A stretch of DNA of 64,000 nucleotides from Utricularia gibba (Eukaryota > Streptophyta > Magnoliopsida > Lamiales > Lentibulariaceae): positions 2,232,001-2,296,000 of the forward strand of contig NEEC01000002.1 of the NCBI GenBank assembly GCA_002189035.1. The letters are read 5' to 3'. Positions 2,494 through 52,138 of this stretch are shown one piece after another. The position numbers were made by a program, and so were the translations under genes. The notes beneath the pieces were generated by a model. The model was not told the DNA's origin, did no database searches, and saw nothing but the letters and a program-made list of their open reading frames with translations. How positions within the stretch are numbered: the first letter of the stretch is position 1; the number at the start of each line of letters is the position of its first letter.

Positions 2494-4558
2494 TCACCGG
2501 AACGCCGTTGCCCAGCGTCCAGACACAACCGGGGAATCATCCCTCCGGCCAGCAACCGTACGGTAAATGTACAGTTTCTCGACGGGGCATTCGTCGGGTC
2601 TGGAATGAGGGGGGCCCCGCTCGTCGATGACCTCGACGTTGAGCCTCGGCATCTTCTGACCAAGGAGCTTACACGCGCCGAAGCTGACGGGGCAATTGGA
2701 CATCCAGAGGGAACGCATTGTCTCCAGCTTCGCGGCGTTGGCCAAGAGAGCGTCGTCGCCGAACGGGCTGTCCCTGATCTCAAGCTTCCTGAGGCTTTGG
2801 CAGCCGGAGAGTACGTGGTGAAGACCCAAGTCGCTGTCCCCGGCGAAGGCGATCGAAAGCATCTCCAGTTTCTTTGCATGAGCGCCGATGTATTTGAAGC
2901 ATTGATCCGTCAGAAGGCCGGAAAGAGAGAGGCGCTGCAAGCCCTTGCAGGTCTCAACAATGGCGCCAAACCCAGCGTCGAGAGGCTGACCCGTCAAATA
3001 ATCAGGCACCCGAGGCTCCAGAATACATAGGCGAAAGCGGATCATGTTGGGGCGATTCCTTGCGATAGAAACTAGCGCAGCATTTGACATCTGACGGCAG
3101 AAGTAAAGAACAGAGTGGAGTTTACTGCAGCCGTGGGTTACAGAGACGAGTCCGTTTTCTGTCAACGACACATTGGGCTCCAGTCTGTATGGCTCTGAAG
3201 GGAAAACTCGAAGTTCTTGTAAGTCCTTACAAGACATGGCAACAGCTTCGAGACCACTGTCTTCGATGTGATCCAGTACCTATGGAGAAACATGTATATT
3301 CTCAACGCCGGAAAAGGGACAATGCAATGATGAAAGACAGGGATCATACCCACAGACGGTGCAAATTCGAGCACTGGCTGACAATTTTGATTAAATCCGG
3401 GCTCTGAATGGCACCATAGCTCAAGTTCAGAGAAGTGATGCCTGAGCATAAAGGGTAGAAAGCCGGAAGATAAGCAGGGACGACGTCCCAAAACCCTGAA
3501 AGATCCCTCAGTTGCTTACATACTGAAAAAGCAGAAGCAAGGCTCTCGAAGGTATCACTCCGGACTTCACATGTGTATGAACCAACTCCCAATTCGACCA
3601 ACTGTGGGGCACGGAGAAGCAAATTGGGAAGCTTCTCGAGAGGGACCGAGCGATTCAACCGTAGACTCCTCAGGTTTGGAGACCGCGAGACAACACGCTC
3701 CAAGGCAGAAAAAATCACCTCAGAGAGTACGCAGGAAATGTTGAGCGACACAAGGGAAGTATAGCAATCGGGGAAATGACTAAGCCAATGTCCAGTTGTA
3801 TCATCCACATCGCTCTCTTTCAAATCAAGTTCTCTAAGATTCCTGCAATTGCGGGTGTTAATCGCCGATGAAAACCATGTAATGAAAAAGAGGTGTCTGC
3901 ATAATCAATGGAAGAAACTCATGAAAAGCATCAAAGATGGGAGCTTTCGGGGGGGGTGAACGGCCCTTTTCCGGTTGTAACTCCAAGCCGCGTCGAAGCA
4001 GCAGAAAGTAGGAAATTTTATGTAAAAACTGTATAGCGCCCCAATCATCACTAGGTTCATATTCAATATTTCTATCTCAGGCTATAGTGAACAAGAAACA
4101 GTACCTGCAACCGGCGGCTATGGAAGCTAGCCCATCAGCTGTGAAGCCCTCACAGGACGCGAGCACCAAAACCTTGAAGTTCTTGAACGACTTCGAAATC
4201 AGATCCAAACTCTCGTCACTGACCACCATGCGCTTAAGCTTGATCTCCTCAAGCAACGGATACGCCGGGACATCGCAACAATCCACGGATACACATAGGC
4301 TCCCCATCCCTCAGGCACGAGGTTAAAATCAGCAAAATGCGGCTTCCCCTTTATCTCCAGAGCCCTAACTTCGGGAAATCTCCGGATCAGGATCTCAGGC
4401 GACACCGCATAGCAGTTACCGACGAAGACACGGCGGCGGCTCCAGCGTTCGATCTCGTACCAAGATTTGCAAACCAAGGAGACAGAGTTCCTGTCCTTGT
4501 CGCACGCCAAGAAGGAGAAAACGTGCTCCAGAACTTCCTCCGGAAAGGCGTACGCCAT
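2494..4558 (-). CDS. TIR1: TIR1-type auxin receptor F-box protein (frame break in exon 1)
   Basis: Three exons on the minus strand: 4558-4105, 3842-3350 and 3279-2494. TIR1/AFB proteins are the F-box subunits of SCF ligases that bind auxin and Aux/IAA degrons in the nucleus and mark the repressors for degradation. The F-box starts at once ([12 protein letters not shown]), followed by the [14 protein letters not shown] block and about 18 leucine-rich repeats. The exon-3 end ([18 protein letters not shown]) places it in the TIR1/AFB1 clade rather than AFB2/3. Exon lengths total 1733 nt, one short of a multiple of three. The break is at about 4267-4269, where the frame changes just after YPWIVAMS. 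Adding one base in the C run (minus strand) restores an [15 protein letters not shown] continuation and a 577-residue protein. Exon junctions are canonical. Sequencing error is more likely than pseudogenisation because everything else is conserved. Confidence 0.9.
2703..2724 (-). promoter_or_regulatory. Degenerate miR393 target site in TIR1 mRNA
   Basis: The codons for the conserved TMRSLWM peptide form the known miR393 target in TIR1/AFB genes. Compared with remembered miR393, the site here differs at the positions opposite miRNA bases 5 and 11 and at several 3' positions. Base 11 is next to the normal cleavage point, so repression may be weak, as described for Arabidopsis AFB1. The comparison rests on memory of the miRNA sequence. 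Confidence 0.5.
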
Positions 4559-50900: not shown

Positions 50901-52138
50901 ATTACCAGCTGCATCAAACCTGGACTCTGGGTTGTTTGAATTGAGGCGCCACCTACCATCACTCTGACTGAGAGCCTGTCAATAGCTGACGAGTTATTCG
51001 CATAAAAGTCCACACAGAGTCAATACTTTAAGAGCCAAATAAGAGTTACCTTTACAGACTGGGCAATTGTGTCGGCATCTGCTTCATTTAGATACACTTC
51101 AGGAGTATGATCCTGCAAAATAAGTGGGAAATATTTAACATAAAGAAAAAAAAAACATGTCTATGGTGAGCGAGCCAGCATATAAGAAACCATTTTCAAC
51201 ACCAAGTTAAACAATATAAAGAATACATGTGGATGGTAGGCGTAATACAAAATGAAGTTACCTTTAGTAGAACCAAACTTCCAATAGCATAGTAAAAGTC
51301 CAGGAGTGCGCTGGCACCATGCAGCGAATCTATAAGTCCGGATTGAATTCCCTAGAGATCAAACGACATGGCCAGAAGATAAAATCTTTGCATCCAGTAC
51401 ATTTGCTCCCAGATACAGAAAAGTGAAATCAATGTGGGCATAAGTCCACATACCAGAAAAGCCTCGTTATGGATTTCACAATTCAACAAGCTGTCAATTC
51501 TTAAAGCATGAAACAAAGGCTTTGAGTCTGAACTTGGGGACTTCAAAGTTTCAAGTACAGAAGCACATGCAGAAGTTCTGATATCAGGACCTTTTTCAAC
51601 CCCAAGAACCTGAAACGTCCTTAGTGCCTCATATGTCTCCTCCAAGCTGGAAATCATATCAAAGTAGGAATACAATTATACCTAAGAAAAATGCAGAATG
51701 GCAGAGTATGCCATTTTAAATCGTACATTTAAGCCAAAATGCTCAAACAACTTAAATGAGATCTTTTTTCAAAAAAAAAAAAAAAAGGTCATACAAGCGT
51801 AGACATCTTCAAGATCATGAGCATTCAATAACGAATCAAAACGAGACACCCCTTAAGTAGCTGTTGAACAAAAGAATCTCATTTTTCACTAGAAGCCAAT
51901 CTATCTTCTCGAAGGATCCAACACTACTATGCCACCTTGGGAAAAAAATGCAGTTTACATTGGATGAATGAAACCACACATTTTAAAAAAAAGACCTTCC
52001 TAAATGCCCATCCACGGAAGCAAATAACTCCAATGCGGCAGATCGATGCTGTTCCGACACTGGGTGAAAGATCTTCGATTCGCTGCCCCAAGCCAAGGCA
52101 CAAAACACAACAATCACAAGACAAATATTCCTTTCCAT
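47997..52138 (-). CDS. HAP6: Ribophorin II, oligosaccharyltransferase subunit 2 (one-base frame break)
   Basis: Nineteen coding exons run from 52138-51996 down to 48128-47997; among them are 51646-51454, 50476-50349, 49494-49349, 48783-48704, 48636-48409 and 48330-48208. The protein is the ER-membrane subunit of the N-glycosylation complex (Arabidopsis HAPLESS 6). A signal peptide ([18 protein letters not shown]) starts a large lumenal part. The C terminus has three to four membrane helices ([49 protein letters not shown]), including the HLFRAPEK block. Summed exons give 2090 nt, one short. The exon at 48783-48704 is 80 nt. One more T in its TTTT run (minus strand, 48781-48778) restores a [14 protein letters not shown] reading and 696 residues, near the Arabidopsis length. 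The ATG at 52138 has the better context of two closely spaced starts. Confidence 0.9.

Follow-up and report, generated by a model that had tools for sequence, protein, structure and literature searches.

Genes of the window and their reading frames

The window, by which is meant the whole analyzed stretch of 64,000 nucleotides (G000:C451:2232001-2296000), belongs to the Utricularia gibba genome, a plant assembly of 100.09 Mb in 516 contigs. It is collinear with G000:C2:420001-520000 (L037-L046), its partner from a whole-genome duplication, and many genes are retained in both stretches. Exons of the named genes were rebuilt and compared with solved homologues and with paralogues from the same genome. 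A first-pass annotation had described five frame-broken genes here. Four of them, the auxin receptor gene TIR1, a NET3-like gene, PsbW, and the ribophorin II gene RPN2, are indeed one base short, while the fifth, encoding glutathione reductase (GR), is intact. Apart from one net missing base, the frame of each of the four is open and its sequence conserved. The genes and sites concerned are the following (positions in the window; the evidence is given in brackets).

2494-4558, minus strand: TIR1 auxin receptor F-box gene, three exons (4558-4105, 3842-3350, 3279-2494), one base short
4267-4269, minus strand: CCC run within exon 1 of TIR1, site of frame loss (sequence, C2 alignment, C3 copy)
8171-8916, plus strand: last exon of the NET3-like gene, frame lost before the conserved C-terminus (open frame, C2 paralogue)
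8831-8836, plus strand: CTCGGG interval in which the NET3-like gene lacks a base (TCTCTTAGGACAGAG in C2 vs TCTCTCGGGCCGAG in the window)
37578-40187, minus strand: GR gene, ten exons, intact (1,659 nt, GT-AG introns, no internal stop)
41186-41669, minus strand: PsbW, two exons (41669-41577, 41490-41186), the first lacking one base (homologue match, intron phase)
41601-41605, minus strand: CCCCC run, likely site of the missing base in exon 1 of PsbW (sequence, C2 copy)
47997-52159, minus strand: RPN2, 19 exons, with one base lacking in exon 16 (exon sum, C2 paralogue)
48775-48783, minus strand: start of RPN2 exon 16 (GATTTTCTG), one T missing relative to the paralogue (C2 alignment)

TIR1 has a coding length of 1,733 nt over its three GT-AG exons (2 mod 3), and its frame breaks at the CCC run of exon 1, which had been named as one base short. 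Arabidopsis TIR1 (2p1m) matches across this exon with an E value of 1.2e-79 and can be aligned before as well as after the break. A third copy of the gene, on contig C3, is intact, and its 13 residues over the CCC site all lie in one frame. The copy on C2 is itself one short at GGGG, a few codons upstream of the site in the window. The deficit proposed for PsbW is borne out as well, given the phase-1 intron of the family: exon 1 measures 93 nt, exon 2, which matches PSII W chains (E 2.3e-32), requires a phase-1 intron, and that same phase-1 intron is carried by a third, intact copy (L025). On C2, PsbW lacks a base at the corresponding C run (CCCC) and a second one at GGGGG in the stretch encoding the membrane helix.

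The 19 exons of RPN2 add up to 2,111 nt, again 2 mod 3, with the frame breaking where exon 16 begins. The gene is one short as previously described, but the C2 paralogue speaks against the suggested placement in TTTT (48781-48778): it reads GATTTTCTTGGG where the window has GATTTTCTGGG (CTTGGG vs CTGGG), and on this alignment the T directly preceding GGG (~48776) is the likelier base to be missing. Similarly, the C2 paralogue of the NET3-like gene, 78% identical, reads on through KAQGFLGRLLTGFTKASH to a stop in the very frame that the window gene loses. One base is lacking within 8831-8836, but the GGG at 8834-8836, to which the loss had been assigned, appears a less likely place for it than the T before CGGG. 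For both genes the paralogue thus places the missing base 1-5 bases off the runs named earlier, and the site in RPN2, probably also that in the NET3-like gene, is not clearly within a run of at least three bases; in TIR1 and PsbW, the C runs named earlier agree with the data. A gene for a Miro-like GTPase (EF_assoc_2 domain) is found near the NET3-like gene, at 11274-13017.

The GR gene had been credited with an AAAA run (38463-38460) one base too long. The actual bases are CAAA, nothing there is one long, and a frame break is ruled out by the ten GT-AG exons, whose sum is 0 mod 3, and by the complete, uninterrupted protein of 552 aa. This reading error means that frame-break claims of such a kind need exon-by-exon checking.

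Duplicates on C2 and coding constraint past the breaks

All four broken genes have syntenic paralogues at C2:423-517 kb, in the collinear block left by the whole-genome duplication, mostly with 69-87% DNA identity. Because duplicate or third copies exist, the plant could tolerate a real lesion in one of them, and the implausibility of five essential-gene deaths, on which the first-pass annotation had leaned, is therefore a weak argument alone. The frame breaks might then reflect recent, real pseudogenisation of one duplicate per gene after the whole-genome duplication, with the copy on C2 or elsewhere in function. Each broken gene has its syntenic paralogue, and for TIR1 and PsbW there is an intact third copy besides. 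Furthermore, true decay has taken place in the block, in which the GR copy on C2 is nearly lost and the NECAP copy on C2, degenerate with many indels of mixed size, is a true pseudogene. Loss of frame in one of several copies, with a truly decayed copy such as C2 NECAP close by, is a likeness that the window genes share with pseudogenes formed after whole-genome duplications.

The differences are, however, considerable. Each window gene has a single lesion, always one base short, and no in-frame nonsense change; the combination of several lesion sizes with nonsense changes expected of a pseudogene was not seen in any of the four, unlike C2 NECAP. Constraint also persists downstream of the breaks. 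In pairwise comparisons of the window gene with its C2 paralogue, dN/dS downstream of the break amounts to 0.078 in TIR1, 0.164 in RPN2, 0.069 in exon 2 of PsbW, and 0.204 in the tail of the NET3-like gene (25 codons only), values that resemble those before the breaks. Relaxed selection, which would bring dN/dS towards 1, was not detected past the breaks in this range of 0.07-0.20, although a very recent lesion would escape such a test. In addition, the duplicates themselves are hit, since both copies of TIR1 and both copies of PsbW, in the window and on C2, are broken. Points against an artefact are that several genes have a duplicate or third copy, so that a young, genuine lesion in one of them would be tolerated and not yet be visible in dN/dS, and that the break in RPN2, probably also that in the NET3-like gene, is not clearly in a run.

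One-base deficits in GRAS and PPR genes

The largely intronless GRAS family was surveyed across the genome. The domain is continuous in 26 of its 38 conserved loci and split in the other 12, and 11 of the 38 carry altogether 14 breaks that are one base short. The twelfth split locus, L058 (G000:C414:3443850-3445150, ~1.3 kb from a contig end), combines an in-frame TGA with a net gain of one base; it may represent either poor consensus or a real pseudogene and was counted apart from the one-base-short loci. Two further loci, L061 and one at C3:261 kb, both look degenerate and were left out of the count. In five of the 11 broken loci, the break is in or beside the conserved RPGGPP codons, which are rich in G/C runs, and L047 has two losses there.

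The RPGGPP codons are a repeated site of one-base loss in GRAS genes (L047-L050 and L052, on contigs C244, C375, C142, C2, and C1). A conserved GRAS frameshift at one position of the model was considered and rejected, as the DNA has independent one-base losses at the five loci and an intron-like interruption in L051. An apparently real intron inside the GRAS domain is found in L051 and in L060, the latter being split elsewhere in the model; this is unusual for a family that is mostly intronless.

Among ~69 PPR loci, at least four carry five breaks, all one base short, a lower bound because it comes from the 13 loci with open frames shorter than 500 aa. The rate of breakage in this family (at least five in ~69 genes) is far below that in GRAS genes. 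G/C runs of four or more number 3.3 per kb in PPR vs 4.7 per kb in GRAS genes, which accounts for the gap in rate only in part; the remainder speaks against the artefact reading.

When the breaks found in the window, on C2, and in GRAS and PPR genes are put together, 26 of the 27 are one base short, mostly at G/C runs, i.e. single-base changes with the excess of deletions that a homopolymer artefact would leave. At least 15 of the 26 fall in G/C runs that are three bases or longer, which hold ~6.5% of coding bases (binomial P ~6e-12, an approximate value as the placement in runs is partly the analyst's choice); with respect to this enrichment in mononucleotide runs, RPN2 and the NET3-like gene are ambiguous. 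The breaks also occur genome-wide irrespective of gene function, in both GRAS and PPR genes and on many contigs. The same lesion in 11 of 38 GRAS genes is implausible as real gene death, and together with the single lesions, the persisting constraint, and the breakage of both duplicates in TIR1 and PsbW, it makes pseudogenisation an improbable account of the four window genes.

Origin of the missing bases

Because constraint continues past the breaks, both duplicates are hit in two cases, and GRAS and PPR genes have such lesions throughout the genome, an artefact is the preferred reading. The four frame breaks are, to judge from these sequence comparisons, very probably single-base deletions in the assembly consensus that are absent from the plant, and the four genes themselves are probably ordinary and working. 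The view that homopolymer length errors explain every break can be kept for these four, with the sites in RPN2 and the NET3-like gene slightly off, but not for GR. Runs, mostly of G or C, would have come out of the assembler with one base too few and would have been left unrepaired for want of correction by accurate reads; such reads would be expected to show one more base at the sites. Presumably, the platform was PacBio long reads with HGAP assembly and Quiver polishing. A review names HGAP, which ends with Quiver polishing, as the assembler used for U. gibba (PMC5793159).

Alternatively, the sequence could be right and the genes functional if splicing, ribosomal frameshifting, or RNA editing restored the frame in the plant. 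In PsbW, one weak GT-AG alternative (donor ATC/GTCCTC, acceptor TACAAG/GGA) would yield an open, shorter transit peptide, and several GC-AG alternatives exist; in RPN2, one GC-AG alternative but no GT-AG rescue was found among the alternatives enumerated. Alternative splicing was judged unlikely for these two genes, and the phase-1 intron is intact in the third PsbW copy. The break in TIR1 is inside an exon, no common slippery signal was seen, the genes are unrelated, and their intact paralogues need no recoding. Restoration of the frame in the plant is thus very unlikely. Little credence can also be given to the idea that the lesions are real in the sense that one base has been lost in coding G/C runs of many genes, with TIR1 and PsbW hit in both syntenic copies, and that the plant tolerates this by means of third copies or recoding. 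That the assembly collapsed, or chose between, alleles or near-identical copies truly differing in run length is conceivable in a multiple ancient polyploid such as U. gibba (PMC8333044, PMC10663240) but extremely unlikely, since the paralogues are 13-31% apart in DNA, too distant for collapse, and allelic length differences would not be nearly all deletions in coding runs.

If the missing bases are errors of the consensus, the feature is a caution about the assembly rather than about biology, and the locus is biologically ordinary. Nearly a third of the surveyed GRAS genes appear dead in the assembly through one missing base. Unless corrected by short reads or RNA, such errors would inflate counts of gene loss and pseudogenes and would affect gene models and protein sets.

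A close parallel is known from azuki bean, in which comparison of a Quiver-polished PacBio assembly with short reads revealed 38,889 deletions and 8,611 insertions, mostly in homopolymers; Sanger sequencing bore out the short reads at each of the 91 indel sites examined, and breakage threatened more than 1,000 genes (PMC4663752). The U. gibba assembly resembles this PacBio CLR/Quiver case in that deletions dominate, homopolymers are the main site, and many coding frames are broken (PMC4663752). The azuki bean errors were proven by short reads and Sanger sequencing, whereas those proposed for U. gibba are deduced from constraint, paralogues, and recurrence across the genome. A further difference is that, in the U. 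gibba assembly, GRAS genes are apparently hit harder than PPR genes.
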